Assembly (NCBI GenBank): GCA_903847975.1
Contig: CAINFC010000321.1
Location: forward strand, 1-57,771
DNA from: an uncultured Acidobacteriota bacterium
GTDB lineage: Bacteria; Acidobacteriota; UBA6911; CAINFC01
Reading direction: 5' to 3'
Length of the DNA: 57,771 nucleotides
A model generated the notes under the pieces. That model searched no databases. It worked only from the letters and a program-made list of their open reading frames with translations, and was not told the origin of the DNA. The position numbers and the translations under genes were made by a program. Numbering within the stretch: position 1 is the first letter of the stretch; each line of letters starts with the position of its first letter. This document shows positions 24,271-55,885 of this stretch, piece by piece.

Positions 24271-24273
24271 GAC

Positions 24274-26583
24274 TCATCCCCTTTTCTTTTTCGCCAGAAG
24301 TTCAAGAATGGTCTTCGGCTCCATGGGACCGTGCGTCGGCCGCACGCCGACGGCATCGTAAATGGCATTGGCAATGGCCGAAGCGGTCGGAATGTGAGCC
24401 GGCTCTCCCAGCCCTTTGCAGCCCACCAGGTTGCACTCCGTGTCCTGCGGATCGACGGCCACCACCTGGTGTTGGACGGGAACGTCCAGCGCGGTCGGCA
24501 CCTTGTAGTCGTGCAGGTTGGCATTGACCATCTTGCCGGTCTGACGATCCAGCACCCGTTTTTCGGTCAGGGCGAAGCCCAGGCACTGCGTCATTCCCCC
24601 GAAAACCTGGTTGTGGAAAGTCTTCTGGTTGATCACCCGGCCGCTTTCGTTGGCTCCCAGCAGCCGCACCACCCGGACTTCTCCGGTCCGGGTGTTGACT
24701 TCCACCTCCGCAAAATGGGCCCCGAACGGATTGATGGCCTTCTTCGGAGGGTTGGGGTCGCGGTTGCCGATGCCGATAACATCCATCACCCCGTTGGCGC
24801 GCAGCAGCTCTTCCAGCGGCTTCTTTTTGTCCGGTGCGCTGCGGCTGCCGATGGCGTTGCCCTTGAGCTCCACATCCTCGGCGGGCACGCCCAGAGCCTC
24901 CGCGCCCCAGGCCAGCAGCTGCTGCTTGACCAGCCAGGCCCCCTTGCGCACCGCGGGAATCAGGCCGGGCAGGGTCATGCTTCCGCCGCTGCTTTGCCCG
25001 TAAGGCGTGACGGCGGTGTCCGCATTTTCAATGCGCACGCTCTCCAGGGGAACTCCCAGCTCCTCGGCGGCCACCATGCAGGCCACCGTCTTGGTGCCGG
25101 TGCCGATGTCCATGGCCCCCGTCTTGATGGTAATGCCGCCATCCACAAACAATCGCACTTCCGCGGTGTAGGGCGGGGAGCCGTTGCCGCCGCTCCACAT
25201 CCCGGCGGCCATCCCGAAGCCCCGCCGGACGGGGCCGTCGGACTTCTTCGCCGCCCGGGCCTCCTGCCATCCGAAGGCCTTGGCCCCCTGCAGCAGGCAC
25301 TCCTTGAGTCCGGTGCTGGTGTACGGCACCTGCCGCGTCTGGCTGACTTCGGTGAAATTTTTAAGCCGAAGCTCGACGGGATCCATGCCCAGCTTGACCG
25401 CCAGCATGTCCATCATCTGCTCCAGGCACCAGTTGCCCGACGGAAATCCCGGAGCCCGGAAAGGTCGGGCGCGCCCGGCATTGCTGTAATACCCGCTTTC
25501 CGAAACCAGGACATTCGGGCATTTGTACAGCTCGGCCACCTGGTACCCGACGGAAGTTCCCGATGCGTAGGCTCCGGGCGTGGACAGGTTGGTCAGCTGC
25601 AGGGCGGTCAGCGTACCGTCCTTTTTCACTCCCGCTTTCAGGGTCATGCGGGCTTCCGGCCGGTTGCCGGTGCACAGGAAGGTGTCCTCCCGCGGCAGCA
25701 TCGCTTTGACCGGCCGTCCCGTCTTGCGGGCCAGTAGGGCGGCGATGATGGAATATTTCCCCACCTCCAGCTTGGCGCCGAACCCTCCGCCCATGTACTT
25801 GCAGATCACCCGGATCTTATTAAAAGGCATATTCAGCGCCCGGGCTGCGCCGAAGAGAACCCCGTCGTACACGCCCTGGGTGGAATCCCAGAGCGTCAGC
25901 TTGTCGCCGTCCCATTTGGCCACCGAGCCGTGCGCTTCCATGGTGGCATGCATCTGCACGCTGGTGTAGAAGGTCTCCTCCAGCACCACGTCGGCTTCCG
26001 CGAAGCCCTGGGCGACATCCCCTCGTTTGACGATGCGGGGCTCGCCCACCGCATTGCCGCCCTCGTACAGCTTGGGGGCGGAGGGTTGCATCGCGGCGGG
26101 ATCCAGGACAAAAGGAAGCGTTTCGTACTCGACGCGGATGGCCCTGAGGGCGTCCGCCGCCTGGTACGGAGTCAGGGCGGCCACCGCCGCCACCTCCTCC
26201 CCCTCATGCCGGCAGTGGGTGTCGAAAAGCTTGCTCTGGGCCGCTTTCCCCCCGTACCAGGGGAGATCCGCTCCGGGCGACTTGCCGCTCAGCACCGCCA
26301 GAACGCCGGGCATTTTTTCCGCGGCCGAAGTGTCGATGCTTTTCACCATGGCGTGGGCGTGCGGACAGCGAAGGATCGCGGCGTAGAGCATATCCGGAAG
26401 AACGATGTCCGCGGTGTACTGCGCCGCCCCGGACACGCGCTCATAGCCGTCCACGCGGGGAACGCCCTTCCCGACCAACTGCGTTTTTTCCCACGGCCTG
26501 ATTTTCGCTTCTGCGACCGGCCCGGGAGCCGGCTCGAAGCTGTTGCGAAAGGACTCTTCCATCTCCTCGTAATAGTGGCTCAT
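24274..26583 (-). CDS. paoC: Aldehyde oxidoreductase, molybdenum-cofactor subunit (PaoC/YagR-like)
   Basis: A 769-residue catalytic subunit of the xanthine-oxidase family. The molybdopterin-binding motif MGGGFGAK is near residue 257, further cofactor motifs are QSSGGSMT and the region GRARPFRAPG, and the catalytic base is the Glu of GCKGLGEPAHIP near the C-terminus. Such enzymes hydroxylate aldehydes to carboxylates. Its ATG at 26583 overlaps the stop of the [2Fe-2S] gene (ATGA), so translation is coupled. The same frame is open further upstream through the antisense of other genes; that part is not homologous and is left out. The substrate is unknown; aromatic aldehydes are the E. coli precedent. 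Confidence 0.9.
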   Translation of the reverse strand: MSHYYEEMEESFRNSFEPAPGPVAEAKIRPWEKTQLVGKGVPRVDGYERVSGAAQYTADIVLPDMLYAAILRCPHAHAMVKSIDTSAAEKMPGVLAVLSGKSPGADLPWYGGKAAQSKLFDTHCRHEGEEVAAVAALTPYQAADALRAIRVEYETLPFVLDPAAMQPSAPKLYEGGNAVGEPRIVKRGDVAQGFAEADVVLEETFYTSVQMHATMEAHGSVAKWDGDKLTLWDSTQGVYDGVLFGAARALNMPFNKIRVICKYMGGGFGAKLEVGKYSIIAALLARKTGRPVKAMLPREDTFLCTGNRPEARMTLKAGVKKDGTLTALQLTNLSTPGAYASGTSVGYQVAELYKCPNVLVSESGYYSNAGRARPFRAPGFPSGNWCLEQMMDMLAVKLGMDPVELRLKNFTEVSQTRQVPYTSTGLKECLLQGAKAFGWQEARAAKKSDGPVRRGFGMAAGMWSGGNGSPPYTAEVRLFVDGGITIKTGAMDIGTGTKTVACMVAAEELGVPLESVRIENADTAVTPYGQSSGGSMTLPGLIPAVRKGAWLVKQQLLAWGAEALGVPAEDVELKGNAIGSRSAPDKKKPLEELLRANGVMDVIGIGNRDPNPPKKAINPFGAHFAEVEVNTRTGEVRVVRLLGANESGRVINQKTFHNQVFGGMTQCLGFALTEKRVLDRQTGKMVNANLHDYKVPTALDVPVQHQVVAVDPQDTECNLVGCKGLGEPAHIPTASAIANAIYDAVGVRPTHGPMEPKTILELLAKKKRG

Positions 26584-27212
26584 GCCATACCCCCTTTCTT
26601 CTTCCGCTCCGCGGCTCGGGTCGCGGCGCTGAAAATGTGCTGGTAGGCCGCGCAGCGGCACAGATTGCCGCTGAGCCCCACCCGAACCTCCTCCATGGTG
26701 GGGCTGGCATTGCGCCGCAGAAGCCCCTCCACCGCCATGATCTGGCCGGGCGTGCAGAATCCGCATTGAAAGGCGTCCTCCTCCACAAAGGCCTGCTGCA
26801 CCGGTCCGAGGTTCTCCCCGTCCATCAGGCCTTCCAGAGTGGTGATCTCCTGCCCCTGGGCCTCTACCGCCAGGGTCATGCAGGCGTAGCGCGGCTTCCC
26901 GTCGATGAGCACCGTGCAGGCCCCGCACTCTCCGCGCTCGCAGCCGATCTTGGTGCCGGTCAGACCGAGGACCTCGCGGATGACGAAAAGAAGGGACCAG
27001 CGGGGCTCCACCTGGATCTTGCGGGTGATGCCGTTGATTTTCAGCTGGATGGGGAGCACGGTCCCCACCGCTTCGATGACCTGAAAGGAGGCGGCATTCG
27101 CCTCCCGGAGTGCCGTGGAGGCCGCGGCTCCGGCGCTGACCGAGGAGATGAAGCCCCTGCGGCTCAGGCCGTGCGGACCGCCGGCACAATTGTTTTCCGG
27201 TTCCTTGGACAT
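26580..27212 (-). CDS. paoA: Aldehyde oxidoreductase, Tat-exported [2Fe-2S] subunit (PaoA/YagT-like)
   Basis: A 210-residue iron-sulfur subunit. It has a twin-arginine signal (LSRRGFISSVSAGAAAS) and two [2Fe-2S] clusters: CERGECGACTVLIDG with a later Cys, and QCGFCTPGQ with GNLCRCAAY. The export signal makes the whole PaoABC-like complex periplasmic. I choose the ATG at 27212 because GGAGG lies 8 nt upstream; a GTG at 27245 is in frame but overlaps trpA. It follows trpA by 29 bp in the same operon. Confidence 0.9.
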   Translation of the reverse strand: MSKEPENNCAGGPHGLSRRGFISSVSAGAAASTALREANAASFQVIEAVGTVLPIQLKINGITRKIQVEPRWSLLFVIREVLGLTGTKIGCERGECGACTVLIDGKPRYACMTLAVEAQGQEITTLEGLMDGENLGPVQQAFVEEDAFQCGFCTPGQIMAVEGLLRRNASPTMEEVRVGLSGNLCRCAAYQHIFSAATRAAERKKKGGMA

Positions 27213-38659: not shown

Positions 38660-38795
38660 TTCCTTCGCGCAGGAAAGGCGGAAACGGCCGATTTGGGGCG
38701 GACCACAGCGGACCGGATCGGCTTTCATCCGTCCTTTCCGCTGTTTCCGCTGTATCCGCGTAACTTTCCGAAAAAGAGAAAGCAGGTCACCTTAC
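38660..38795. repeat. Dispersed palindromic intergenic repeat, copy A
   Basis: It contains CCGCTGTTTCCG, a second CTGTATCCGCGTAACTTTC unit and the hairpin remnant CTTTC-CGAAAAAGA-GAAAG. The part from 38739 to 38791 aligns closely with 52230-52280 and 55830-55880, all in the same orientation. Its left part (GGCGGAAACGG, CACAGCGGACCGGATC) is an imperfect inverted copy of its right part. It follows manA. Confidence 0.65.
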
Positions 38796-38909
38796 CCATA
38801 TCGCTCCTTTTTTTCCGTGCTTCCGTCCTGCTCCCGGGCTACGCAGAAAGTTCTCTATCCAGGGAGGCTTCTGGCTTGAGGGGAATGGGAAAACTCGGGC
38901 TTCCATGTC

Positions 38910-39011: not shown

Positions 39012-40325
39012 ATGGCGGAAAAGGATATAAGCCGAAGTTCAATTCAATTACCCGTCCAGTTCAGACACCTTCCGGTACTCCGGGCTTTCGTCGAGCAATC
39101 CTCTACGGCTTACGATTTTCCGGCAGAGGACTCTACTCGTCTCGTTCTCGCGACGGAAGAGCTATTCGCTCATGTTTGTGCCCTGCCTTCCGAAGGAAAG
39201 GAAATGAAGGTAGTTGTACTGCCGCAACCACATCAGATCCGGCTCGGCTTTTTTTTCCACGGGGAGCAATTTGATCCCTGGTCTTTTAATATCGGCGCTC
39301 GAATTTCCGCCGACGACGATACTTCTCTGGAAGGACTTGGGTTGCTTCTGGCCGCCCGTTCTGTCGATAGCTTCACGATCCGTCCCCAGGAGCTGGGAAA
39401 TATCGAGGTCTGGATGACCAAAAAAAGGACCTATCCGCAAACGGCACCAGCCCCACGGGAGTCGAGAACTTTCACCGGCCCGCTCACTGTTGGTTCCGCT
39501 TCCCAGGAATCCATTCGCATGTTTGTGGGAAACCTCCAAGCCTTTTACCCGGAATCCGCCTTCCCCGCCTTCCTGAATTCCGCCGGCCGGCTGATCGATA
39601 TGCTGTCCGCCGGGGAATATGACCTTTGTCTGGCGCTCGACGACAGGGGGCAGGTCGCAGGCGGAATCCTATGGAATTTCCTCTCGGACCGTGCCGTAGA
39701 ATGCTGCGGTCCCTATCTTTTCGGTCCGGAGCTGGAGGCTTGCGCTCAGGATCTGATGGATGCGGTGATCAACCGGATTGCTAAAACCAGTGCAGTATGC
39801 CTGGTTTCCCGCTGGGCAACCCCGGACGTACCCCATGGTACGTTTGAGGTACTGGGAAAGATTCACTCCTTCACCCTTGCGGAGGGGATGGCCGAAGTGC
39901 CTGTCCTGGGCCGCTTTCTGAAAGAGGATGAAGGCCTGTATGTGTGGACAACACCCGAACTGGAAAAGTACTTGGGAGAGCAATATGGCCGCCTTTGCAT
40001 CGCCCGCCGTTTGCTGCCGGCCCGGGAAGAGGGGGAAAGAAGACGAAGGCATTCGGTCATCGCCGCTCACATCGATCAGCAGCACCAGTCCGCCTTGTTG
40101 ACGCTGGCGCTGGATGGAGAGGATTTGGAATCCAACATCCTTCAGCAGGTTGCTTCCCTGCTGCTGCATGGGGTTTGCGTGATTCATTTCGAACTGGATC
40201 TCGCCTCAGCCCAGAAAGCCCGATTAGCGCCTATCCTGATGAGAAACGGATTCGAACCTCGTCTGGTATTGCCTCATGCCGGGGCCGGAGATATTGTTTT
40301 GCTGGAAAAGGTCCTTCACCCATGA
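39012..40325 (+). CDS. RsbW-like ATPase domain fused to a GNAT-like acyltransferase domain
   Basis: A 437-residue cytoplasmic protein. Residues about 10-135 look like an anti-sigma/RsbW-type histidine-kinase-like ATPase (RAFVEQSSTAYDF, LATEELFAHVCAL, GLGLLLAARSVD). The N-box position usually held by Asn reads His (EELFAHV), and the G1 box is poor, so ATP binding may be altered. Residues about 150-437 form one or two GNAT-like folds, ending with LMRNGFEPRLVLPHAGAGDIVLLEKV, which is similar to the end of the 46364-47422 protein. It is the first gene of a seven-gene operon whose members overlap. Role unknown: regulator, acyltransferase, or both. The ribosome-binding site is weak (GGAA). Confidence 0.7.
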   Translation: MAEKDISRSSIQLPVQFRHLPVLRAFVEQSSTAYDFPAEDSTRLVLATEELFAHVCALPSEGKEMKVVVLPQPHQIRLGFFFHGEQFDPWSFNIGARISADDDTSLEGLGLLLAARSVDSFTIRPQELGNIEVWMTKKRTYPQTAPAPRESRTFTGPLTVGSASQESIRMFVGNLQAFYPESAFPAFLNSAGRLIDMLSAGEYDLCLALDDRGQVAGGILWNFLSDRAVECCGPYLFGPELEACAQDLMDAVINRIAKTSAVCLVSRWATPDVPHGTFEVLGKIHSFTLAEGMAEVPVLGRFLKEDEGLYVWTTPELEKYLGEQYGRLCIARRLLPAREEGERRRRHSVIAAHIDQQHQSALLTLALDGEDLESNILQQVASLLLHGVCVIHFELDLASAQKARLAPILMRNGFEPRLVLPHAGAGDIVLLEKVLHP

Positions 40326-41446
40326 TGCGGCCCAATACGCTCAACTTGGAATCTTTGGTGCCCCGCCATGTCCAGCGGTTCGAACCGTATATCCCCAGTC
40401 GGCCGGAGGAAGAGCTCCGAAAGCTCTATCGCTTTCAAAAGCTTTACCGCCTCAATAATAATGAAAACCCGCTGGGCCCCTCGCCCCAGGCACTGGAGGC
40501 CATTGCCGGCTTCCATCCTGCATCCGGATGCTACTATCCAAGCGGTGATTGCTTTTATCTGCGGCAGGGCCTAGCCGAACGTTTCCAGCTCAACCCCGAC
40601 CAGTTTATTGTCGGTAATGGGGCCAATGAGGTCATTGGCATGGTAATCCATGCTTTCTGTCAGGAAGGGGATAACATTGTAACCGCGGACAAGACCTTTG
40701 CGGTTTATGAATGGGTGGCTTCCTTTAGCGGCCTCGAAACCCAACTGGTACCCTTACAGGGTTTTTCTTACGATGATCCGGAACTGCTCCGGCGAATGAA
40801 TGGGAAAACCAAGATCGTCTTTCTCTGTAATCCGAATAATCCGACCGGAACCTATTGGGATCGATCCCGTTTATGCCGGTTTCTGGATGCGGTTGGGATA
40901 CAGCATCTGGTTGTCCTGGATGAGGCTTATGCGGAATACGTGCAATGTCCGGACTTTCCCGATGGAATCAGCCTGCTCCATGAATACCCCAATCTGATTG
41001 TTTTCCGGACCTTTTCCAAGATTTACGGCCTGGCCGGGTTTCGTATCGGATATCTGGCCGCCTCCGGCTCGCTGACCGACATGATCCGCCGTACGGCGGT
41101 GGTTTACTCCGTAAACGCTTTGGCCCAGGTCGCGGCCTTGGCGGCGCTTGGCGATAACGAGCATATCCAACGAACCCGAGAAGTGGTTCAAGAGGAAAAG
41201 AATTTCCTGGTTCCGGCCATCCGAAAAAAGGGAATTCCTATCCAGGCCGACCAGGGGTGCTTCGTGATGCTGCGCATGCCGATCAACGACACCCTGGTGT
41301 ACAGGAAAATGCTGCAGCGAGGGATTATGATTCGAAGCATGACCGGATTCCGGTTTCCCAACTGGATCCGAGTCAGCATCGGACAGCATGAAGCCATGGA
41401 GGCATTCCTGGCCGCCCTGAATGAGGTTCTCGACGATGCCCAATAA
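40322..41446 (+). CDS. HisC-like class I/II PLP aminotransferase
   Basis: A 374-residue fold-type I PLP enzyme of the histidinol-phosphate aminotransferase group. Visible motifs are LNNNENPLGPSP, FLCNPNNPTGTYW, VLDEAYAEY and the PLP lysine Lys233 in TFSKIYGLAGFRIGY; a C-terminal Arg in NWIRVSIG binds the substrate carboxylate or phosphate. The ATG at 40322 overlaps the preceding stop (ATGA). No histidine genes are nearby, so it probably serves the local pathway by aminating a keto intermediate. CobD-like or phenylalanine-type specificity cannot be excluded. Confidence 0.88.
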   Translation: MMRPNTLNLESLVPRHVQRFEPYIPSRPEEELRKLYRFQKLYRLNNNENPLGPSPQALEAIAGFHPASGCYYPSGDCFYLRQGLAERFQLNPDQFIVGNGANEVIGMVIHAFCQEGDNIVTADKTFAVYEWVASFSGLETQLVPLQGFSYDDPELLRRMNGKTKIVFLCNPNNPTGTYWDRSRLCRFLDAVGIQHLVVLDEAYAEYVQCPDFPDGISLLHEYPNLIVFRTFSKIYGLAGFRIGYLAASGSLTDMIRRTAVVYSVNALAQVAALAALGDNEHIQRTREVVQEEKNFLVPAIRKKGIPIQADQGCFVMLRMPINDTLVYRKMLQRGIMIRSMTGFRFPNWIRVSIGQHEAMEAFLAALNEVLDDAQ

Positions 41447-43763
41447 AGGATGTGAGCCTGTGCGGCTGGAATTGGGAGCTCGCATCCCGAGAGCCGATGG
41501 CCTTTCCAAAGTCACCGGGACCGAGCCTTATGCCGTCGATCTCTACCCTCCCAATCCCCTCTGGGCCGGGGCTAAGCGCGCCGGCATTCCCCACGGTCTC
41601 ATCCGGGGAATCGATAACGCCCGGGCCCGATCTCTTCCCGGCGTCATGCGAATTCTGACTTCCGCGGATGTCCCCGGCTCCAATCGCCATGGCATCATTC
41701 ATCAGGATATGCCCGTTTTGGCGGATGGCAAGGTGCGCCATGGCGGGGATGCCGTTGCCTTGGTGATTGCCGAGAGCCGGGCAGCTCTGCGGCAGGCTTT
41801 GGAAGCGATTATCGTACAAATCGATCCCCTGCCCATCGTCGCCGGGATTGACGATGCGCTCGATCCTCAATCCCCCAAAGTTCATGAAGAACGCCCGGAG
41901 GGGAACATTCTGGTGCATGCCAGGATAGAAAGGGGGAAAGTCGACCAGGCTTTCGAGTCGTGTGCCGCCGAAGTCAGCGAGGTCTTCGTCACACCGGTGC
42001 AGGCTCACCTTTTTCTGGAAACGGAAAACGGACTGGCCTTCCTGGCTGAGGATGGGACCCTGGAAATCATCGCCTCGACACAGGCGCCGTTTCGCGACCG
42101 TTTCGAGATTTCCCGCGCGCTTTCCATTCCCTTCGAAAAGATCCGGGTGAAAGCTCCCTATCTTGGCGGGGGATTCGGAGGAAAAGATGGAGCCACCGTG
42201 CAATGCCTGCTGGCACTGGCTGCCCTGGCCGTTCCTCTGCGGTGGATCAAAATGGTGTGGGAGCGGGAAGAGAGCATGCTGGCCGGCTATAAACGCCACG
42301 CCACCAGGCTCCATTATCGTGCCGGGGCCCTTGAGGACGGGACTTTATACGCCCTGGACTGCCGCTTATTTTACGATACCGGGGCTTACGCCCATTTGGG
42401 GGGCGAGGTTCTGGAACTGGGAATGGAACATGCGGCCGGCCCCTATCGCATCCCTCATGCCCGGGTGGAAGGCTGGTGTCTCTATACGAATAATCCGATC
42501 GCCGGAGCGATGCGAGCCTTTGGCGTTTGCCAGGTGGCTTTCGCCATCGAGCAGGTCATTGATTTGCTCGCCGAAAAGCTGCATATCGACCCCCTGGATT
42601 TTCGATTGCGAAACGCTCTACGTTCCGGAGATGAAAACCTCTCCTCCCTGCCGGCAGCGGATTCGACGGGAATGCAAGCCTGCCTGCGGCAGATTGCCGA
42701 TCACCCACTCTGGACCGGTAGGGAAAACTGGAAATCCTCCGCTTCGGCCCATACCCGAAGAGGGGTTGGGATCGCTTCCGTTTTTAATGCCATGGGCTAC
42801 GGCAAGAACGTGAGAGACTCGGCCATTGCCCGCATCGAGCTGATGACCAGCGGGGAATTCATGGTTACCAGCGCCGTTGCGGATATGGGCCAGGGAAACG
42901 CCAGCACCTACGCGCAGATTGCCGGATCGATTCTCCACCAGAATGAGGGACAGGTCCATGTAACTCAGCCGGACACCGCTCATGCCTATCCGTCCGGATC
43001 TTCCTCCGCGGGCCGCACGACTTACACGTTCGGGAATGCCCTGTTTCAGGCCGCCCATGAACTTCGGAACCGAATTCTGAACCGGGGCGGAATGATGCTT
43101 TTCACGGAGGATGACCGCCATCTGGAGCTTCGCCCCGGCTGCATCCGTCATGCGCCAAGCGGCCGGGAACTCCCCCTCTCCCGTCTTGCCTCGCTTATGC
43201 GGCCGGAGGAAAGAGTTTCCTTGGCTCACTTTGTGGCCCCCGTCGTCGAGCCCAAACCGGGAACCTATGAAGGATTGCGCATCGGGTTTCCCCATTTGCT
43301 TTATGCCTACGGAGCCCATTTAGCCGCCATCGAAGTGGATCTGCTCAGCGGAGCCATCTCCGTGCTCCATTATGTGGCCGTCACCGATGGCGGAACGGTT
43401 CTCAATCCCACTCTTTTCGAACAACAGATTGAAGGCGGGATTGCCCAGGGGATGGGTTTTGCGCTCCTGGAGGACCTTCTGATCCGGCAGGGGATCATTC
43501 TAAATCCGGACCTGAGCACGTATCTGATTCCAACTTCCCTGGATCTGCCCACCATGGAAACCTCCTGGGTAAACGGCTCCGACAACTCCGGCCCTCTGGG
43601 AATGAAGGGGGTGGGAGAGGTCGCCATGAACGGACCGCTGCCGGCCATAGCCAATGCCTTCGCGCATGCCACCGGCCGGCGAATTTTTCAGGGCCCTTTG
43701 CATGCCGAGCGGGTTTTCTGGACGCTGGCCGGATCCCAATGCGACCAGGAGGAAAAGCGATGA
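41436..43763 (+). CDS. Molybdenum hydroxylase large subunit (CoxL/XdhA family)
   Basis: A 775-residue catalytic subunit from the ATG at 41436. Cofactor-binding motif YLGGGFGGKDG is near residue 243, followed by GAMRAFGVCQ, SSSAGRTTY and the catalytic Glu in MKGVGEVAMNGPLPAIANA. There is no Tat signal, unlike the pao set, so it is cytoplasmic. It overlaps the aminotransferase by 11 bp and the [2Fe-2S] gene by 4 bp. Such enzymes hydroxylate N-heterocycles or oxidise aldehydes and purines with water as oxygen source. The cysteine/selenocysteine loop of carbon-monoxide dehydrogenase is not evident, so CO oxidation is unlikely. Confidence 0.9.
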   Translation: MPNKGCEPVRLELGARIPRADGLSKVTGTEPYAVDLYPPNPLWAGAKRAGIPHGLIRGIDNARARSLPGVMRILTSADVPGSNRHGIIHQDMPVLADGKVRHGGDAVALVIAESRAALRQALEAIIVQIDPLPIVAGIDDALDPQSPKVHEERPEGNILVHARIERGKVDQAFESCAAEVSEVFVTPVQAHLFLETENGLAFLAEDGTLEIIASTQAPFRDRFEISRALSIPFEKIRVKAPYLGGGFGGKDGATVQCLLALAALAVPLRWIKMVWEREESMLAGYKRHATRLHYRAGALEDGTLYALDCRLFYDTGAYAHLGGEVLELGMEHAAGPYRIPHARVEGWCLYTNNPIAGAMRAFGVCQVAFAIEQVIDLLAEKLHIDPLDFRLRNALRSGDENLSSLPAADSTGMQACLRQIADHPLWTGRENWKSSASAHTRRGVGIASVFNAMGYGKNVRDSAIARIELMTSGEFMVTSAVADMGQGNASTYAQIAGSILHQNEGQVHVTQPDTAHAYPSGSSSAGRTTYTFGNALFQAAHELRNRILNRGGMMLFTEDDRHLELRPGCIRHAPSGRELPLSRLASLMRPEERVSLAHFVAPVVEPKPGTYEGLRIGFPHLLYAYGAHLAAIEVDLLSGAISVLHYVAVTDGGTVLNPTLFEQQIEGGIAQGMGFALLEDLLIRQGIILNPDLSTYLIPTSLDLPTMETSWVNGSDNSGPLGMKGVGEVAMNGPLPAIANAFAHATGRRIFQGPLHAERVFWTLAGSQCDQEEKR

Positions 43764-44239
43764 CCGACTTTTGGCTCAATGGAGAAAAGATCGTTTGGGA
43801 AGGCGATCCCGCGATCCGGGTCATCGACCTCTTACGGGAAAAATTGGGACGGACGGGAACCAAGGAAGGGTGCGGCACCGGCGAGTGCGGTGCCTGCGCC
43901 ATCCACGTGAATGGGGAGCTGCACCTCTCCTGCCTGATGCTGGCGGGACAATTGCAGGGATGCCGGGTGACCACCATTGAGGGTATGGCCCCCGCGGGAG
44001 GCATCCATCCCCTGCAGCAGGCCTTCCTCGATTCGGGAGCCGTACAGTGCGGCTTTTGTATCCCCGGCATGGTTATGGCAGGTGCCGCTCTGCGGGCCAA
44101 GGTACCCGATCCCTCCGAACGCCAGATCCGGGAGGGGCTGAGCGGCAACCTCTGCCGCTGCACCGGGTACGGGAAAATAATCCAGGCGGTTCGTTCCCTG
44201 TCCCTTTCTGGATCTGCGGCTGAAGAAGGTAATCCGTGA
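43760..44239 (+). CDS. Molybdenum hydroxylase [2Fe-2S] small subunit (CoxS/XdhC-type)
   Basis: A 159-residue iron-sulfur subunit. The N-terminal plant-ferredoxin-like cluster uses CGTGECGACAIHVNG with a later Cys (HLSCLML); the C-terminal helical cluster uses QCGFCIPGM and GNLCRCTGY. All eight cysteines are present. It has no export signal. The start at 43760 overlaps the large-subunit stop (ATGA) with AGGAGG just upstream. It hands electrons from the molybdenum centre to the FAD subunit encoded next. Confidence 0.94.
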   Translation: MTDFWLNGEKIVWEGDPAIRVIDLLREKLGRTGTKEGCGTGECGACAIHVNGELHLSCLMLAGQLQGCRVTTIEGMAPAGGIHPLQQAFLDSGAVQCGFCIPGMVMAGAALRAKVPDPSERQIREGLSGNLCRCTGYGKIIQAVRSLSLSGSAAEEGNP

Positions 44240-44349
44240 TAAAGACGCCAGGAAGGATTTCCGCCGGAAAAGGCAGCACCCTTGCACATCGCCGCGACAT
44301 GGTGTGTTTTTGTCCGGCCGGCTCAGAAAGAACGTAGTATTTGACGCCC

Positions 44350-45183
44350 ATGATACAACTATTTTTTCCATTGTCCTTGCGGGAACTCTGGGAGATACGG
44401 TCCCGTTTTCCGCAAAGCCGCCTGTTCGCCGGGGGGACCGACCTTTTTGTCCAGCGGCGGTATCAGACCCAGGATGAGTCTCCCCTGATCGGCCTGGAAA
44501 GGATCCAGGAACTTCGAACGACGGCTTGGGAAGGGGATACCTTCACCGTCGGCGCCGCCACTCCTATCCGACAGCTGCTGGAGGATGATTCCGTGCAGAC
44601 CTTGCTGCCGGTACTGGCGCAAGGGCTGGCTTGTATGGGAGGACCGGCCCTGCGGAATATGGCTACGATCGGTGGAAACCTCTGTACCGCCTCCCCCGCG
44701 GGAGACAGCCTGCCTCCGCTTTACGTGCTGGGAGCCGATGTCGTCCTGCATTCGGAGTTTGGCCGGCGCAGCCTTCCCATCAAGGAGTTCATTCTCGGTC
44801 CCGGGAGCACCTCGCTGCGCTGCGGCGAAATCCTGCATTCCATTAAAATTTCCCGCCCGCCGCCCGGTTCCGTACAATGGTACCAGAAGGTCGGGCAACG
44901 GAAAGCGAATGCCATCGCCATCGTCTCCCTCGCTGTTCTGGGCCGTTCCGCCCCTGACGGGGGCTTCCAATCGATACGGCTCGCCTGGGGAAGCGTTGGC
45001 CCGACGGTAATCACTTCCCGGGAGGCGGAAGCCTGTCTTGAAAGTAGCCCTCTCACCATGGAAAAGGTAAATTCCGCCGCCCAAACAGCCCGTCAGGCGG
45101 TCGCGCCCATCGATGATATCCGTGCCTCTGCCGAATACCGGCGAATGCTCTCCGGCAATTTGGTCTACCGGCTGCTGCGATGA
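44350..45183 (+). CDS. Molybdenum hydroxylase FAD subunit (CoxM/XdhB-type)
   Basis: A 277-residue FAD-binding subunit. FAD contacts are LFAGGTDLFV near residue 28 and TIGGNLCTASPAGD near 106. The [4Fe-4S] insertion of PaoB is absent, so this set is of the xanthine dehydrogenase/CO dehydrogenase type. A TTG at 44341 is also in frame. A 110-bp gap separates it from the [2Fe-2S] gene, the only real gap in this otherwise overlapping operon. Its stop overlaps the transporter start (ATGA). Confidence 0.92.
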   Translation: MIQLFFPLSLRELWEIRSRFPQSRLFAGGTDLFVQRRYQTQDESPLIGLERIQELRTTAWEGDTFTVGAATPIRQLLEDDSVQTLLPVLAQGLACMGGPALRNMATIGGNLCTASPAGDSLPPLYVLGADVVLHSEFGRRSLPIKEFILGPGSTSLRCGEILHSIKISRPPPGSVQWYQKVGQRKANAIAIVSLAVLGRSAPDGGFQSIRLAWGSVGPTVITSREAEACLESSPLTMEKVNSAAQTARQAVAPIDDIRASAEYRRMLSGNLVYRLLR

Positions 45184-46367
45184 CTCCCAGTGAATCCGAG
45201 GAAAAACTCTGGAATATCGAATTTGCTGTGGTCGCCCTGATTTTGTTCTGTTGCGCATCCGGGCTGGCCATCTTTTTCGATTTTCATAAATACCTGGAAA
45301 GCCTGCAGGTACCTCCTTCCTGGATAGGTCCGTTAATCGGAGCCGATGGTCTGTCAGGCCTGGCCGCCTTGCTTTGGGCCACCCTGATGCTCCGGAAACG
45401 CCATATACAGCGGGCCATAACCGGAGGAGCCGTGATCTTCTGGCTATCCCTCTGGTCCTATCTTTGGGTTGACAAACCGCTCACGATCCTGCTGGTTCGC
45501 CTGCTGCACGGCTGTGGATTTGCGTTGCTGTTGGCTGCTCTTACTCTGCGATTGTCAAAGGCTATTCCTCGGCGGTGCAGTGGAACGGCTTTCGGTATCA
45601 TCGCCCTGGCGCGCCTCTTGCCATATGCCGTCATCCCTCCCCTTTTGAACTACCTTTCCCCGGGTTCTCTGAATTTCCGTTCCGTGGTTTTTTTTAGCGC
45701 TGTTTTCCTTACCCTTCTTTTCCCGATGATTTTCATTCTGGGCAGGCCCAAGGGGGAGGATTCCGGAACTGCGGTACCCCACCATTCCCCAAGGGATCTC
45801 TGGAGAAACCTCCGACAGAGGACAATCGCTTTCCTGCTGGCAGTTTGCCTGCTGATGCAGTGCAGCTATGTCATTGTCTTCTTCTACATCAACGTCTATG
45901 CCAGGAGGCTGAACCTGTCTAACCCCGGACTCTTTTTCGGCGTGGCCAGCCTCCTGATGATTCTCACACGACTGGCGGGCGCCGCTTTGGGGGACCGCTT
46001 CGAAAAAAGGAGGCTGGTCATCCAAGCCCATCTGCCGCTCCTGATCGCCTTCGGATGCCTGGCGGTCGGGCGGGGCGAACCGGCTTTCCTTTCGGCTGCT
46101 TTCCTGTTTGGGGTTGGGTGGGGAGTGGGCATGCCGCAGCTCAACGCTTTGCTTTTTGACCGTTCCCGTCCTGAATTTCGGGGTCCCAATCTAAACACCT
46201 CCATGATCGCGATTCAGGTCGGATTTTTCCTTGGCCCCTTGGGGGGCGGGGCCATTCTGGCTCGATTCGATTATGGCGTGCTGTTTCATGCCTGCGCCGT
46301 CCTTTCGCTTCTATCCATTTTTCTCCTGCTGGGTATCCCACGGGAATTGCAAAAGGAAAGAGAATGA
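45180..46367 (+). CDS. MFS transporter, probable exporter of the locus product
   Basis: A 395-residue membrane protein with about 12 hydrophobic helices. It has MFS features such as the cytoplasmic basic loop after helix 2 (MLRKRHIQRA), a long loop after helix 6 and GAALGDRFEKRRLV at the repeat of the signature between helices 8 and 9. Its start overlaps the FAD subunit stop, and its stop overlaps the next start, both by ATGA. Position in a biosynthetic operon suggests product export or precursor import; the direction is inference. Confidence 0.88.
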   Translation: MTPSESEEKLWNIEFAVVALILFCCASGLAIFFDFHKYLESLQVPPSWIGPLIGADGLSGLAALLWATLMLRKRHIQRAITGGAVIFWLSLWSYLWVDKPLTILLVRLLHGCGFALLLAALTLRLSKAIPRRCSGTAFGIIALARLLPYAVIPPLLNYLSPGSLNFRSVVFFSAVFLTLLFPMIFILGRPKGEDSGTAVPHHSPRDLWRNLRQRTIAFLLAVCLLMQCSYVIVFFYINVYARRLNLSNPGLFFGVASLLMILTRLAGAALGDRFEKRRLVIQAHLPLLIAFGCLAVGRGEPAFLSAAFLFGVGWGVGMPQLNALLFDRSRPEFRGPNLNTSMIAIQVGFFLGPLGGGAILARFDYGVLFHACAVLSLLSIFLLLGIPRELQKERE

Positions 46368-47422
46368 ACAAGCAAGAAGCTATTCAACGATTGATTCAGG
46401 AAGGTTACCGGATTGAGCCGGGCCAGGAATTCGAGATTGATCGGATGAAACCGGAAGATGCCTGGGGAGCTGTCCGCTGCTTTTATTCCGTTTATGGCGA
46501 CGAATATCCATTTGAGGTTAACTATGTTCCGGAGCTTCTAATGGAGGAAAACAGGCAAAAAAAGCTTCAAACCGTCGTAGCGCGGACCCCATCGGGGGAT
46601 ATTATTGCCTGCGGGGCTCTCTTTCTCAGTTCCGCCTATTCTCTCAAGGTTTATGAAGTGGGCCAGGTGGTAGTGGTGCCGGAGTATCGCAGCACGTTTG
46701 CCGCTTTGTGCATCCAGGATTACATCTACCGGGTTCTGGCTCCCGAGGAGGATATCCACACGATTTTTGGGGAGGCGGTCTGCAATCACCTTATCATTCA
46801 GAAAATGTCCCGGCTGGCGGATTTCAGGGAAAGCGGCCTTGAAGTCGGACTCATGCCCGCAGCGGCCTATCCCATGAAAGACTTCCCCGGGGAAAGGGTC
46901 TCAACTCTTCTGGGTTTCAAAGTAATTCAGGACCAGCCGCAAACGGTTTTCCTTCCCCGGCGCTATGCCGCCATTTTGAAGTCCCTGGTCGATGATATGG
47001 ATGTCCGCAGGGATTACCAGGTTTCCGAGGCAGGAATCCCTCCCGGTTCCCCGACGGTAATCCAGAAAAAACTGTTCGAATTCGCACAGGTCGCCCGATT
47101 CAACCTGTTTCGGGCCGGCGAAGATTTCCCTTTTCGGCTGGAAGCCGAGGAGCAGGAAGCGGACCAGGCCGGCTGCCAGGTGAAACAGGCATTCGTAAAT
47201 TTGGGGGAAGCCTGGTCCGGTTGCACGGTGGACTGCCTCAAAGATCACGGCTATTTCTTTGGAGGATTCCTTCCGCGCTGGTTCGAAACGGATGGTTTGC
47301 TCATGCAAAAACTCATCCGTGTGCCGGATTTTGCCTCCATTCAGCTGGAATCGGATCGTTCTCGCCGTATTCTCCAATTCATACGCCAGGATCTGGCGGA
47401 CCATCCAGCAGGCACGGGCTAG
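46364..47422 (+). CDS. GNAT-like acyltransferase protein
   Basis: A 352-residue cytoplasmic protein. Residues about 20-200 resemble a GNAT N-acetyltransferase (IDRMKPEDAWGAVRCFYSVYGDEYPFE, then VGQVVVVPEYRSTFAALCIQDYI as the acyl-CoA-binding region). The C-terminal part (CTVDCLKDHGYFFGGFLPRW) resembles the end of the RsbW-GNAT fusion that opens this operon, so the two share ancestry in that half. Last gene of the plus-strand operon, overlapping the transporter gene (ATGA). It could acylate the amino group introduced by the aminotransferase (inference). Confidence 0.72.
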   Translation: MNKQEAIQRLIQEGYRIEPGQEFEIDRMKPEDAWGAVRCFYSVYGDEYPFEVNYVPELLMEENRQKKLQTVVARTPSGDIIACGALFLSSAYSLKVYEVGQVVVVPEYRSTFAALCIQDYIYRVLAPEEDIHTIFGEAVCNHLIIQKMSRLADFRESGLEVGLMPAAAYPMKDFPGERVSTLLGFKVIQDQPQTVFLPRRYAAILKSLVDDMDVRRDYQVSEAGIPPGSPTVIQKKLFEFAQVARFNLFRAGEDFPFRLEAEEQEADQAGCQVKQAFVNLGEAWSGCTVDCLKDHGYFFGGFLPRWFETDGLLMQKLIRVPDFASIQLESDRSRRILQFIRQDLADHPAGTG

Positions 47423-47607: not shown

Positions 47608-47853
47608 TTAGGCGTTGATCACTTTGTGCAGGGTATCGACCAGGGCATTGGTGCATTTCACATTGGCCAGTTCGTTGATCGGAATCTTGACCTGAAGCTC
47701 TCGCATGGTGGCGGTGATAATCTGAACCAGATCGAGACTATTGATATCGTAATCGCTATAGTTTTTGTTCAGGTCCAGTTCCGCCGGATTCAGGTCGGGA
47801 ATCACATCCTTGAGGTTTTTAAGAACAACGGCCAGTACTTCTTCTCGGGTCAT
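47608..47853 (-). CDS. Acyl carrier protein of the beta-branching cassette (AcpK/donor-ACP-like)
   Basis: An 81-residue carrier protein. The phosphopantetheine serine is Ser39 in DYDINSLDLVQI, with Asn rather than Asp before it, as is common in donor ACPs of polyketide HCS cassettes. The C-terminal region (LQVKIPINELANVKCTNALVD) also resembles AcpK. AAGGAG lies 8 nt before the ATG. It overlaps the end of the ECH1 gene by 35 bp. It would carry malonyl, then acetyl, to the HMG-CoA-synthase-like enzyme. No phosphopantetheinyl transferase is in the window. Confidence 0.9.
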   Translation of the reverse strand: MTREEVLAVVLKNLKDVIPDLNPAELDLNKNYSDYDINSLDLVQIITATMRELQVKIPINELANVKCTNALVDTLHKVINA

Positions 47854-48628
47854 TGGTATCTCCTTCTTCAGTTAGTGGTGAATGGGAGGGAACAGAACCC
47901 GTGTTGGGCAACATTCCTTCCAGGTAAAAACTACGAAAATTCATTTTTACCTCATCCCGTGAAAGGATTGCGGAAGCGATTTCAGTTCCACGGCTGATCC
48001 CGTCGGCAACGGAAAGGGTCGCCGCGTCCGCCAGCCAGTGTTTCCACAGGGATATGGTATCCGATTTGGGCCGCGTCAGTTGACGCGACAGGTCTCTTAT
48101 CCGCTTCGGCAATTGCGGACCCGGGACGACGAAATCGGCAAGTCCGAGAGTTTTGGCTTCCACGGCATCGATGGTGTGACCACACAGACAAAGAGCCCGA
48201 AGCTTTTGGGGCAGCATGCGCTGCAACAGGATCGGTGTGATCATTGCGGGGATAATATCGAAGATCATTTCGGGAAGCCCGAATAGGGCGGAGTCGGAGG
48301 CCACAACGATATCGCAGGCCGCCGCCAGGCCCAAACCTCCGCCAATCGCTTCTCCGGTCACTTCCGCAAGGACCGGTTTGGGAAAGAAGTAGATCTTGCG
48401 CAGCAAAGCGGCAAAACCCTCGACGGCCGGCCGGACCGCGCCGGCCTGCATTTCATTCTCCAAGGTAAACAGGTTCGGATCCAGGCCACGACAAAAAACG
48501 TCTGTGGTGCCCTCCAAAAGGACGAGGCGCAGGGAGGCGTCATCTTCCACCTGGTGCAAGTTTCGCTGCACGGCAGCGATGGTTTCCGCATTCAGGCAAG
48601 CGGGCAGGGAGATCCGGAAAAGACTCAT
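47819..48628 (-). CDS. Enoyl-CoA hydratase-like ECH1 (PksH/CurE-type dehydratase)
   Basis: A 269-residue crotonase-fold protein. The oxyanion-hole regions are LEGTTDVFCRGLD and EVTGEAIGGGLGLAAACDIV. The VFCRGLD form of the first site matches ECH1 enzymes of beta-branching cassettes, which dehydrate the HMG-like intermediate to a 3-methylglutaconyl-like one. The C-terminal 25 or so residues are hydrophilic and run into the ACP gene, so they may be an overhang. Its start overlaps the ECH2 stop (ATGA). Confidence 0.82.
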   Translation of the reverse strand: MSLFRISLPACLNAETIAAVQRNLHQVEDDASLRLVLLEGTTDVFCRGLDPNLFTLENEMQAGAVRPAVEGFAALLRKIYFFPKPVLAEVTGEAIGGGLGLAAACDIVVASDSALFGLPEMIFDIIPAMITPILLQRMLPQKLRALCLCGHTIDAVEAKTLGLADFVVPGPQLPKRIRDLSRQLTRPKSDTISLWKHWLADAATLSVADGISRGTEIASAILSRDEVKMNFRSFYLEGMLPNTGSVPSHSPLTEEGDTNDPRRSTGRCS

Positions 48629-49383
48629 GGTGTGTCCTCATCCTCCGTTTGTAAATAATTCCGCTCAACCCAGTCCCTGGTGGACGGGCAGGCGAAGCAT
48701 ATCCGGTGCATCCGATCTTCCTGCTGCTGGGCTTCCGCCAGCAACTTTTTTTTCCGGGAAGCCAGTGCCCCCTTCAACAATTGCATTGCAATTTTTTCCT
48801 TTTCGACCATCTGCGTGGCCAGATTCCGGGCAAGCCCGACTACCTCCTGGCGAGCGACAATATAGTTAATGTTCGTCTGGCGCAGGGAAAGCTCGCTCCC
48901 CCGATACGTTCGGGCGGTGAACATCATTTCCGCGGCCAGGTAAGGCCCCACCAGGTCCGCCAGGAGAGCGGTACATCCCATCCCTGGAGTAAATCCCAGG
49001 GACAGGAAGGTAGCGCCGTATCGGCTTTCCTTTGCGGCAATCACAATGTCGCAGCAAAGAGCCAGCATGAGGCCTCCTCCCACAGCATGTCCCTCCATGG
49101 CCGCAATCACCGGACAGGGAAGGTTCAGGATCTGCTCGCTGAGGGTCAAGTCGCGTACCGCCACTTTCCCTTCGCAAAGATTCAGAAGGTTCCGGCGGCA
49201 GGCTCCGGCAGAGAATACTTCGGGCGTGCCCTGCAAAAGTAATACTTTAGGCTCCTTGACCCGGATGAGTTCCAGCTCGGCCTGGAGGCGGTTCAGAAAG
49301 GCCGGGTGAAACGTATTGCCATTCCGGGCATCAAGCATGGTCAAACTGGCAATCCCGTTCTCTTCGAAAATGGTTTGGATCAT
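48625..49383 (-). CDS. Enoyl-CoA hydratase-like ECH2 (PksI/CurF-type decarboxylase)
   Basis: A 252-residue crotonase-fold protein that closely matches the PksI pattern: GTPEVFSAGACRRNLLNL, then CEGKVAVRDL, PCPVIAAMEGHAVGGG, FTPGMGCTALL and TARTYRGSEL. In known cassettes ECH2 decarboxylates the 3-methylglutaconyl-ACP to the beta-methyl-branched enoyl product. AGGAA precedes the ATG at 49383, which is 20 bp past the HMG-synthase stop. Assignment of ECH2 versus ECH1 rests on motif recall, not an alignment. Confidence 0.88.
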   Translation of the reverse strand: MIQTIFEENGIASLTMLDARNGNTFHPAFLNRLQAELELIRVKEPKVLLLQGTPEVFSAGACRRNLLNLCEGKVAVRDLTLSEQILNLPCPVIAAMEGHAVGGGLMLALCCDIVIAAKESRYGATFLSLGFTPGMGCTALLADLVGPYLAAEMMFTARTYRGSELSLRQTNINYIVARQEVVGLARNLATQMVEKEKIAMQLLKGALASRKKKLLAEAQQQEDRMHRICFACPSTRDWVERNYLQTEDEDTP

Positions 49384-49403: not shown

Positions 49404-50636
49404 TTAGCACCATTCATATTCCCGACGATAGCCGGCAATCCGCTTCAGGATCAGCCGGTTCCTTCCCTGGTACATCGTCTCGAAGCAACCTTGGGGAACA
49501 TCCAGGGACGGGAGGTAATCCATGCTCTCAGTGGAATGATCCCGCTCATTCTCAATCTCTTCGTATTCTTCCACCGTAACGCGCCGTCTCGAAGAAAAAT
49601 GCCGCTCCAGATCCAGGGCAGCGATGACTTCGACGGCGCCAGGCAGCAGGATGCCGCTATAGAATTGGCCGATCGAGCCGGAACCATAAGAATAAAATCC
49701 GATTCGATTTCCGGATTGGAGGCGATCTCTTTCTTGGTGAATCAATCCGCAGAGACCGATTGCATTGCTGGCGCCGTAGGAGCCGCCCATCTGGGAAGCA
49801 AAGTGCAGGGAGGGCAGTACTTTCCGCTGAAAACTGGCCAGAATTTCTTTTTGTCCTCTTTTTTGGGCCAGGCTGAGCAACGTGCGGTGTGCCTGGTAAG
49901 CCATGCCGGCAAACGGCATGTGGTAAATCAGGTAATCGAAGTGGCTTTCGGGGTCGATCCCGGAACCCACCTTTTCTGCGTATTGACGATAGGCTCCCTC
50001 CAACGCTTCGAGATAGGCAAACAGACTCAGGGAGCTGTCCACGAGTTCCAGTCTTGCCGTCGGCCGAAAAAAGTCGTATTCCTGCCGTGAATAAATTCCG
50101 GTATGCAACCGTTCCCAGGCCATCACTTCAGGATGCCAGCTCAATAAGATCGCCGCGGCGCTGCAACCCGCCACCATTTCCTCGGGCTGCCGAAAATGCT
50201 TTCGGCTGAGGTCGGCGATAAGAACCAGGGCTTTCTGATCGAGGCGATTCCCGGCCTCCAACCAGTCCATCGCGATGTCCGTGGCGGCAACGCCGGCGTA
50301 GCAGGCAAATTTGATCTCAAAATTCCTGACATGGGGCGACAGCCCCAGGGCCCAGTGGGCCATTGCGGAGGCCGGCGCGGAAAAGTCTGCAGAACTTTCC
50401 GTAGCGAAAATCAGGAGACCGATCTGTTGTTTGTCTTCCGGGGTTAGAATCGCACTGGCCGCATTGACCGCCATGGTCAGGGTGTCTTCAAACGTCGGGA
50501 TCAGAGACCTGTTTTGGAGCCGGTATTCTCCGGTAAATAGGGGGCTGTCCCAGCCTCGGGCTTTGGCCAGCTCTTCCTGGGAAAGATAAAGAGGAGAAGC
50601 GTAAATGTTTATTTTCTCTATGCCGGCCTGATTCAT
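49404..50636 (-). CDS. HMG-CoA synthase-like beta-branching enzyme (PksG/CurD-type HCS)
   Basis: A 410-residue thiolase-fold enzyme. Start MNQAGIEKINIYAS and length agree with PksG. The catalytic triad is visible: Glu80 in FATESSADF, Cys112 in KFACYAGVA and His239 in YHMPFAG. It would condense acetyl-ACP onto a beta-keto-acyl thioester. The ATG at 50636 has GGAA upstream and lies 40 bp after the ketosynthase stop; an upstream in-frame start would overlap that gene and adds no homology. A mevalonate-pathway MvaS is a less likely reading because of the neighbouring ACP, KS and ECH pair. Confidence 0.93.
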   Translation of the reverse strand: MNQAGIEKINIYASPLYLSQEELAKARGWDSPLFTGEYRLQNRSLIPTFEDTLTMAVNAASAILTPEDKQQIGLLIFATESSADFSAPASAMAHWALGLSPHVRNFEIKFACYAGVAATDIAMDWLEAGNRLDQKALVLIADLSRKHFRQPEEMVAGCSAAAILLSWHPEVMAWERLHTGIYSRQEYDFFRPTARLELVDSSLSLFAYLEALEGAYRQYAEKVGSGIDPESHFDYLIYHMPFAGMAYQAHRTLLSLAQKRGQKEILASFQRKVLPSLHFASQMGGSYGASNAIGLCGLIHQERDRLQSGNRIGFYSYGSGSIGQFYSGILLPGAVEVIAALDLERHFSSRRRVTVEEYEEIENERDHSTESMDYLPSLDVPQGCFETMYQGRNRLILKRIAGYRREYEWC

Positions 50637-50676: not shown

Positions 50677-51999
50677 TCAACGATCCCGTTGGGGCAGGTC
50701 GCCGGCGGAGTTGCGGTCGGAGGCGCGGGCAATAAGACTGGCGGTATTGAACCCCCCCATGCCGAAGGAGTTTTTTATCATGGTACGGATGGAGTGATCC
50801 ACCGGCTGATTGGCGCATACGTCCAGATCTACCTCGCGGTCCAGACGCTCGATGTTGATCGAGGGGTGCAGGCGACCGGCTTGCATTTGCAGAATGGCGG
50901 CCACGGTTTCGACGACGGCCGCCGCGAGATAGCAGTGTCCAAGAATGGATTTGGGAGCATTGATTTTAAGCCTGGAAGCATGCTCGCCGAATACTTTCTT
51001 GATCGCACGGATTTCGGCCAGATCCCCCTGTTGCGTGGAAGTGGCGTGAGCGGAAATGAAGTCCACTTCCTGAGGAGCGATTCCTGCATGGCGCAGGAGA
51101 CTTTCCATGACCCGCACCTCGTGCTCTTCGGAAGGACTGGGAGCTCGGGAAGCATTGGAATTGATCTCTACCTCCAGGATTTCGGCATAAATGCGGGCCC
51201 CGCGCGACAGAGCATGTTCCCGCTCCTCGAGCAGCAGGGCTCCGCCGCCCTGACAGAAAACGAAGCCTTCGCGATCCACATCGAAGGGTCGGCTGGCCCG
51301 GGTCGGCTGTTCGTTGAAGTGCTGGCAGGATAAGGCTCCGATCTGCACCAGGGAGTGCAGGGTCGCGGCGCACACATCATGCACGGGGCTCAGCACCAGA
51401 GCCAGCTTCATGTCGTGGTACCGAATCTCGTCCAGGGCGCTCCGCAGGGAGATATTGCCGGTGCCGCAGGTTCCGCCATTGAGGTAGACGGGGCCCTGGG
51501 CATTCAGGGTCTCGGATACGCTGCTGGCATGATCGGAATCCGCCCCCTTGAGGACCATGCCGGCATCCGCCAGGGCAGGGTCCCTGGCGAACTGGCTCAG
51601 ATTCCGCTCCATGTATTGCTCGTTTAAATCATAGCCGCCGATGATGACTGCGGTCTGCCTGGGATCCAGATCTGCCCGGAAGGCATCCGCATCCAGAAAA
51701 GCATCCACGGCAAGCAAATTGGAAAGTTGTACGGACCAGGCCGCGTTGCGCGTCAGACGATTCAGCCACCGATTTGTTTTTTCGGGGATCCGCTCCCGCA
51801 GTCGAGAGAGTTTTCCCTGCACATCGTATCCCGTCAGATCGCCCCCGATTTTGCAGGCAATGTTGGAGGTGTCGATTCCTTTCCAGGCGGTAATAGCGGA
51901 GTGGCCCAAAAGAAGGTTCCGGATAAACTCCTCCAGGGTATCGCCTAAAGGAGTGTTTACCGCCATCCCAGTGACTACGATCTTTTTTCTCTCCGGCAT
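50677..51999 (-). CDS. Ketosynthase of the beta-branching cassette (PksF/CurC position)
   Basis: A 440-residue FabF-like ketosynthase, first gene of the minus-strand operon. In beta-branching cassettes this enzyme decarboxylates malonyl-ACP to give acetyl-ACP. The nucleophile region reads GGTCGTGN with Cys178; the two histidines are His318 (ISAHATST) and His355 (KSILGHCYLAAA), with Lys350. Cassette ketosynthases described so far generally carry Ser in place of the Cys, so a complete Cys-His-His set is noteworthy: the enzyme may also condense. A promoter (52090-52118) and an inverted repeat (52041-52056) lie upstream. Confidence 0.9.
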   Translation of the reverse strand: MPERKKIVVTGMAVNTPLGDTLEEFIRNLLLGHSAITAWKGIDTSNIACKIGGDLTGYDVQGKLSRLRERIPEKTNRWLNRLTRNAAWSVQLSNLLAVDAFLDADAFRADLDPRQTAVIIGGYDLNEQYMERNLSQFARDPALADAGMVLKGADSDHASSVSETLNAQGPVYLNGGTCGTGNISLRSALDEIRYHDMKLALVLSPVHDVCAATLHSLVQIGALSCQHFNEQPTRASRPFDVDREGFVFCQGGGALLLEEREHALSRGARIYAEILEVEINSNASRAPSPSEEHEVRVMESLLRHAGIAPQEVDFISAHATSTQQGDLAEIRAIKKVFGEHASRLKINAPKSILGHCYLAAAVVETVAAILQMQAGRLHPSINIERLDREVDLDVCANQPVDHSIRTMIKNSFGMGGFNTASLIARASDRNSAGDLPQRDR

Positions 52000-52209: not shown

Positions 52210-52280
52210 AGGGAAGGACACCCGTCCGATCCGCTGTTTCCGTGTAACTTTCTGAAAAACAGAAAGCGGGAGTCCTTACC
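52210..52280. repeat. Dispersed palindromic intergenic repeat, copy B
   Basis: Outer arms AAGGACACCCG (52214 region) and CGGGAGTCCTT (52268 region) pair with one mismatch. An inner perfect hairpin CTTTCTG-AAAAA-CAGAAAG occupies about 52249-52267. The sequence between (CCGATCCGCTGTTTCC) is shared with copies A and C. It follows the TonB-receptor stop and could act as its terminator. Confidence 0.7.
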
Positions 52281-52304
52281 CTTTATTCTTTTTTTCCCGC
52301 CGGC

Positions 52305-55769: not shown

Positions 55770-55885
55770 ACTTTGTTCTTCCGGTTACACGGAAACGGCG
55801 GATGGGACGGATGAAGGACGATCCGATCCGCTGTAATCCGGAAATTCCGCTGTTTCCGCGCGACCGGGAAAGCGGGTGTCCTTCC
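55770..55885. repeat. Dispersed palindromic intergenic repeat, copy C
   Basis: The right part (CGATCCGCTGTAATCCGG, then CCGCTGTTTCCGCGCGACC and GCGGGTGTCCTTCC) matches copies A and B. The left part (GTTACACGGAAACGGCGGATG) is an inverted copy of the same core. It lies directly 3' of the kinase-TPR gene, whose stop is at 55890. Confidence 0.65.

Follow-up and report, generated by a model that had tools for sequence, protein, structure and literature searches.

Organisation of the seven-gene operon

The plus strand of a 57,771-nucleotide contig from an uncultured Acidobacteriota bacterium (CAINFC010000321.1, the whole of which we refer to as the window) carries a seven-gene operon, g1 to g7 (39012-47422), in which a molybdenum (Mo) hydroxylase is combined with an aminotransferase, two GNAT-like proteins and a transporter of the major facilitator superfamily (MFS). 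It converges on a minus-strand operon for a 3-hydroxy-3-methylglutaryl-acyl carrier protein synthase (HMGS), and the question that this locus raises is whether the two operons encode a single pathway, as an initial annotation of this DNA had proposed, or whether the plus-strand operon is a system of its own. The contig (C321) belongs to an 8.13-Mb genome, the sole representative of its order among the genomes compared. On balance we favour the reading that g1-g7 constitute a cassette that is autonomous, has moved horizontally and serves to make and export a small nitrogen metabolite that is transaminated and hydroxylated by the Mo enzyme, the chemistry being predicted from the gene set. The genes are as follows.

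39012-40325, plus strand: g1, HATPase_c_2 (RsbW-like) N-terminal domain fused to a degenerate GNAT-like C-terminal half (PF13581, E 2.9e-5, under the gathering cut-off)
40322-41446, plus strand: g2, HisC-fold pyridoxal phosphate (PLP) aminotransferase (PF00155, E 1e-52)
~41436-43763 (other possible start 41421), plus strand: g3, Mo hydroxylase large (Mo-cofactor) subunit of the xanthine dehydrogenase (XDH)/nicotinate dehydrogenase branch (PF02738, PF20256, PF01315)
43760-44239, plus strand: g4, [2Fe-2S] subunit (PF01799, E 1.8e-30)
~44350-45183, plus strand: g5, FAD subunit (PF00941, PF03450)
45180-46367, plus strand: g6, MFS transporter, probable exporter (PF07690, E 1.3e-29)
46364-47422, plus strand: g7, stand-alone GNAT-like half of the HATPase-GNAT family (no Pfam match)

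All seven genes were found where the initial annotation had placed them, in the same order and with the domains that it had named. It had counted six of seven junctions as tight; there are six junctions, of which five are tight, and its description of most of them as ATGA overlaps holds, since 4-bp overlaps of this type occur at g1/g2, g3/g4, g5/g6 and g6/g7. The g2/g3 overlap is 11 bp with the preferred g3 start, and a 110-bp gap separates g4 from g5. The convergence that it had reported was also confirmed, with 185 bp between the end of g7 and the stop codon of the acyl carrier protein (ACP) gene (47608) of the HMGS operon.

A second copy of the operon on a plasmid of another phylum

An orthologous operon is present on plasmid pTs417 of Candidatus Thiodictyon syntrophicum, a purple sulfur bacterium of another phylum (NZ_CP020371.1, ~291.6-300.5 kb; L209:15628-24567), and this plasmid gave the best or only plasmid match for g1, g2, g5, g6 and g7. 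The gene order there is g1-g2-g6-(IS607)-g3 remnant-g4-g5-g7, and identities between orthologs are 32% for g1 (427 aa), 60% for g2, 31% for g6, ~55% for the g3 remnant, 62% for g4, 48% for g5 and 39% for g7. The Mo large subunit of pTs417 is in two pieces beside IS607 transposase genes, with IS607 lying between the MFS gene and the g3 remnant. The recurrence of this arrangement of g1-g7 on a plasmid from a different phylum shows that it is more than chance. No genes of the HMGS operon were found in the 40 kb surrounding the pTs417 operon and no HMGS anywhere on the plasmid, which is likewise not among all 47 plasmid records with HMGS matches. We conclude that the plus operon is an independent cassette common to two phyla and able to exist without a linked HMGS cassette. 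The pTs417 copy is no proof that the complete set functions in Thiodictyon, and the operon is not mentioned in the consulted passages of the Thiodictyon genome paper.

The molybdenum hydroxylase and the transaminase

A potential explanation for the operon is that it encodes a catabolic, XDH-like pathway for purines or other N-heterocycles together with an importer, rather than a biosynthetic one. The top-scoring models for g3, g4 and g5 are indeed XDH models, the site residues of g3 are XDH-like, and the pTs417 operon has two genes of solute carrier family 23 at a distance of ~7-16 kb. However, all of these XDH scores fall under the curated cut-offs: the best NCBIfam model for g3, pucD, gives 502.6 bits against a cut-off of 783.65, and XdhA gives 475 bits against 780, and on this basis a purine XDH label for g3 was rejected. 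A CO dehydrogenase label was also rejected, because g3 scores 232-272 bits against the CoxL models, far under their cut-offs of 950-991; its active-site loop, AGAMRAFGVCQ, is not that of CoxL. In addition, we noticed neither XdhC nor allantoin or uricase genes near the operon, where the flanking genes are annotated in part, and no clear purine or CO context was seen at the window locus or on pTs417. Purine catabolism, moreover, does not involve a HisC-type transaminase or a pair of GNAT-like proteins. We therefore consider the catabolic explanation improbable.

The solved chain nearest to g3 is that of nicotinate dehydrogenase (3hrd_A), and the catalytic Glu motif GMKGVGE is kept. In the aligned motifs, the site residues of g3 (REES and AMRAFG) resemble those of E. 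coli XdhA (REEC and AMRGYG) more than those of the aldehyde-type enzyme PaoC (RPSI and AMRAPG). XDH and nicotinate dehydrogenase enzymes such as E. coli XdhABC and B. subtilis PucCDE likewise consist of three separate subunits with the same domains and with XDH-like site residues. Besides its scores, the window enzyme differs from this family in its gene order (large-FeS-FAD) and in adjoining transaminase, exporter and GNAT-like genes rather than purine genes. The region of the paulomycin cluster (PMC4425429) likewise contains an aminotransferase together with Mo hydroxylase genes of XDH type (pau46-48); there, however, the Mo enzyme is of Yag type and is listed close to purine genes (allantoinase), a HATPase-GNAT pair is absent, and both the organism and the product class are different. 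Apart from g3 itself, the genome sets of the same phylum and class contained no g3 relative of >38% identity. A second Mo-hydroxylase-like set, comprising an FAD subunit and a probable large subunit, lies on the minus strand of the window at 23296-27189.

The g2 protein scores over the NCBIfam hisC cut-off (TIGR01141, 291.5 versus 276.55). Two more HisC proteins of the same genome also exceed it and, because one of these adjoins a hisB-like gene, g2 is probably not the housekeeping copy of the histidine pathway.

g1 and g7 are related to HATPase-GNAT fusion proteins

A family profile was made of 10 HATPase_c_2-GNAT fusion proteins that were retrieved as g7 homologs, two of which score over the Pfam cut-off for Acetyltransf_1. 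g7 matches the GNAT half of this profile with 148 bits and has no HATPase part, and g1 matches the profile at both ends with 46 bits. These profile matches show g1 and g7 to be two members of one HATPase-GNAT family, and it is through this membership that the earlier description of g7 as GNAT-like is borne out. The stretch GGxLPRWFxTDGLLMQKL is conserved between g7 and its pTs417 ortholog.

The HATPase_c_2 domain of g1 raises the alternative that g1 and g7 are signalling proteins of RsbW-like partner switching and that the operon functions in a stress or redox response. In favour of this alternative, SpoIIE phosphatase, STAS and RsbW-like genes adjoin the pTs417 operon on the opposite strand, and a STAS gene precedes a homologous fusion gene at a locus (L053) in another genome of the same phylum. 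Nevertheless, the N-box Asn is missing both from g1 and from its pTs417 ortholog (EELFAH / EEIFIY), the surroundings of the window operon showed no SpoIIE, STAS or RsbW-like partner genes, and g7 is without any HATPase part. A signalling role for the pair is in our view very unlikely.

Homologous fusions of ~490 aa lie directly upstream of MFS-like genes at L053 and at L052, a further locus in another genome of this phylum, where AMP-ligase and LuxE genes accompany the fusion gene. The HATPase-GNAT and GNAT-like genes of such LuxE and AMP-ligase clusters belong to the same protein family as g1 and g7; however, their partners are an acyl-protein synthetase and AMP ligases in place of the transaminase and Mo hydroxylase of the window operon, and they are only ~24% identical to g7. 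Further g7-like genes in Pseudomonadota are solitary or lie within AMP-ligase clusters. Downstream of genes of the LuxE/AMP-ligase type, g7-like GNAT genes were observed on a plasmid from Salmonella and in a further Pseudomonadota genome (L210:5133-10891, L218:987-6749). No close g7 ortholog was found among 396 genomes of the phylum or 38 of the class, the viral contigs gave no match for a g7+HMGS concatenate, for g2 or for the pTs417 g7, and g7 was not found in the phages searched.

The convergent HMGS operon

The minus-strand operon consists of five genes, all with intact reading frames.

47608-47853, minus strand: ACP, probable donor/carrier of the HMGS operon (PF00550, E 2.7e-8; ~27-47% to ACPs of relatives)
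47819-48628, minus strand: ECH1-like dehydratase of PksH type, a weak assignment (PF00378; PksH 3hp0, E 3.6e-16, with general enoyl-CoA hydratases scoring higher)
48625-49383, minus strand: ECH2-like decarboxylase of CurF/PksI type with conserved His (NF005496 over cut-off; CurF 2q2x, E 3.5e-37; PksI 4q1i, E 4.6e-34)
49404-50636, minus strand: HMG-ACP synthase of CurD/PksG type (CurD 5kp5, E 1.3e-59; PksG 4yxq; E80, C112 and H239 invariant)
50677-51999, minus strand: ketosynthase (KS) of condensing type (Cys178-His318-His355 intact, from active-site alignment with relatives and Ser-type KS)

The same five functions (ACP, KS, HMGS, ECH1 and ECH2) make up the HMGS (HCS) cassettes of modular polyketide synthases (PKS), such as those for bacillaene (PksF-I/AcpK), curacin (CurB-F) and bongkrekic acid (BonF-I/BonN), and the window HMGS and decarboxylase are nearest to CurD/PksG and CurF/PksI, respectively. 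In the canonical polyketide cassette, however, the KS carries a Cys-to-Ser substitution (PMC3075265) and is termed KS0 (PMC12560621), whereas the active-site Cys-His-His residues are kept in the window KS and in 46 aligned relatives (L087-L161). Ser takes the place of the Cys in the KS of four other aligned loci (L086, L154, L158 and L165), one of which is on a Sandaracinus plasmid and adjoins nonribosomal peptide synthetase (NRPS) genes. Because the KS has an intact Cys, the window operon does not read as a classical polyketide beta-branching cassette. The initial annotation had called it a beta-branching operon, which is upheld for the HMGS, ECH1/ECH2, ACP and KS functions but is atypical for the polyketide type.

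The closest relatives of the window cassette are instead free-standing clusters, unlike the cassettes of modular PKS, and were found in Spirochaetes, Aminicenantes, Bacteroidetes, Yersinia and others. The 46 Cys-type loci, several of which are cut by contig ends, have as neighbours a short-chain dehydrogenase/reductase (SDR; 46/46), a second SDR (38), a FabA-like dehydratase (37) and a PLP enzyme reading as an oxoamine synthase (32). None of these is present in the window, and we conclude that the reductases, the dehydratase and the PLP oxoamine synthase that accompany its stand-alone relatives were lost from its cassette. By analogy with PKS chemistry, the stripped version could on its own yield a beta-branched C5 acyl-ACP of 3-methylcrotonyl type. 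A literature search found no published description of the PKS-free, Cys-type HMGS cluster family or of its products.

The window contains no KS other than the free-standing one, and no modular PKS with an acceptor ACP is found in the cluster. There are five KS matches in the genome, one of them within a modular enzyme on another contig; the sole modular PKS of the genome is a 3781-aa NRPS-PKS on another contig (G000:C232:14956-26301; L020/L021). As read from its sequence, this protein has two NRPS modules and a module of KS, dehydratase, ketoreductase, ACP and thioesterase (KS-DH-KR-ACP-TE), seemingly without an acyltransferase of its own, and it is encoded beside transporter-like genes.

Linkage of the two operons

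The single pathway that the initial annotation had put forward would have this one locus produce a beta-branched acyl unit, which would undergo amination, oxidation by the Mo hydroxylase, acylation and export. In its favour, the two operons converge at a distance of 185 bp and have a common composition distinct from that of the flanks. The GC content at third codon positions (GC3) is 0.59-0.70 in all twelve genes of both operons and 0.76-0.86 in ten flanking genes, which were chosen for a clear reading frame and partly also for high GC3. Because of this choice, and because long open reading frames at 5715-19425 of the window likewise have a lowered GC3, low GC3 is not unique to the locus, and the meaningful feature is its uniformity across both operons rather than the low value alone. 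Since the twelve genes share a common low GC3, both operons probably arrived as one island. A single pathway would also be consistent with an HMGS operon that has no dedicated PKS in the genome and in which the PLP release enzyme seen in its relatives is missing, a function that the plus operon might take over.

Against this stand the pTs417 operon, on a plasmid with no HMGS gene, and the distribution of the HMGS family. The plus operon was found beside none of 80 related HMGS loci. One of these, from Planctomycetota (L156), lies near genes for a Mo hydroxylase and a HisC and was considered as a second joined locus; it was judged unrelated because the Mo enzyme is fused, XDH-like and XdhC-linked (30%), the HisC is 28% identical and a nadB-like gene intervenes. 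Likewise, g7 was not found in 50 genomes carrying the HMGS family, the same query retrieving homologs in other genome sets as a positive control. The co-occurrence across genomes that had been suggested as a check was thus not observed, and in these tests both operons meet in this genome only. Furthermore, the Mo site resembles that of heteroaromatic hydroxylases, which, partly from what is known of the family, are unlikely to act on an acyl chain, be it saturated or enoyl.

We consider a single obligatory pathway doubtful. Shared composition and convergence still speak for the initial proposal, but a joint requirement is not supported, given the pTs417 copy and the 80 HMGS loci. That annotation had held that homologous operons regularly lacking the beta-branching operon, in a clear purine or CO context, would count against it; such an operon was found once, on pTs417, and the context was not seen. 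The plus operon in general does not seem to need the HMGS operon, and only in this genome might it be linked to a C5-branched acyl unit. The statement that no cluster with this combination had been described agrees with our literature search, which found none in a body of papers that excluded most subscription journals.

Proposed role of the cassette

For the autonomous cassette that we favour, we propose that the HisC-fold transaminase g2 would install an amine and that the three-subunit Mo enzyme g3-g5, of XDH/nicotinate dehydrogenase type, would hydroxylate the compound, a heteroaromatic ring being a likelier target than an aldehyde because of the active-site residues. The stand-alone GNAT-like g7 would acylate the compound, g1, as a related and probably non-kinase HATPase-GNAT partner, would act in acyl transfer or regulation, and the MFS protein g6 would export the product. 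The HMGS operon would be a separate module from the stand-alone (non-modular) family, and in this genome the two modules of the same composition may feed one product.

Several observations weigh against this proposal. The uniform GC3 argues for both operons being one unit in this genome, and the absence of HMGS from pTs417 covers the plasmid only, not the Thiodictyon chromosome. Conservation of the full set extends to two loci only, since the pTs417 operon is the only other one found and has a broken Mo large subunit. g3 scores under every NCBIfam cut-off; the acetyl-CoA loop of g7 reads as degenerate, and g7 may be non-catalytic.

Mo hydroxylases are known mostly from catabolism. If the set is conserved, the pairing of a Mo hydroxylase with an exporter, a transaminase and proteins resembling acyltransferases would therefore point to a biosynthetic use and to a new metabolite. 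The neighbouring cassette is part of a wide HMGS family without modular PKS whose KS is seemingly able to condense. A more elaborate version, which we offer tentatively and think rather unlikely, is an undescribed system in which the transaminase, a Mo ring hydroxylase and the HATPase-GNAT pair lead to an exported N-heterocycle, the cassette moves between phyla, and here the GNAT-like transferase receives a C5 branched acyl group from a PKS-free HMGS pathway.

Flanking repeats

The direct repeat at 38726-38816 and 52219-52300 was considered as an insertion scar and ruled out, as it has ~45 matches genome-wide and its flanking position is ascribed to chance. A further copy of this intergenic repeat, which has a short hairpin-like core, lies at 55784-55813.

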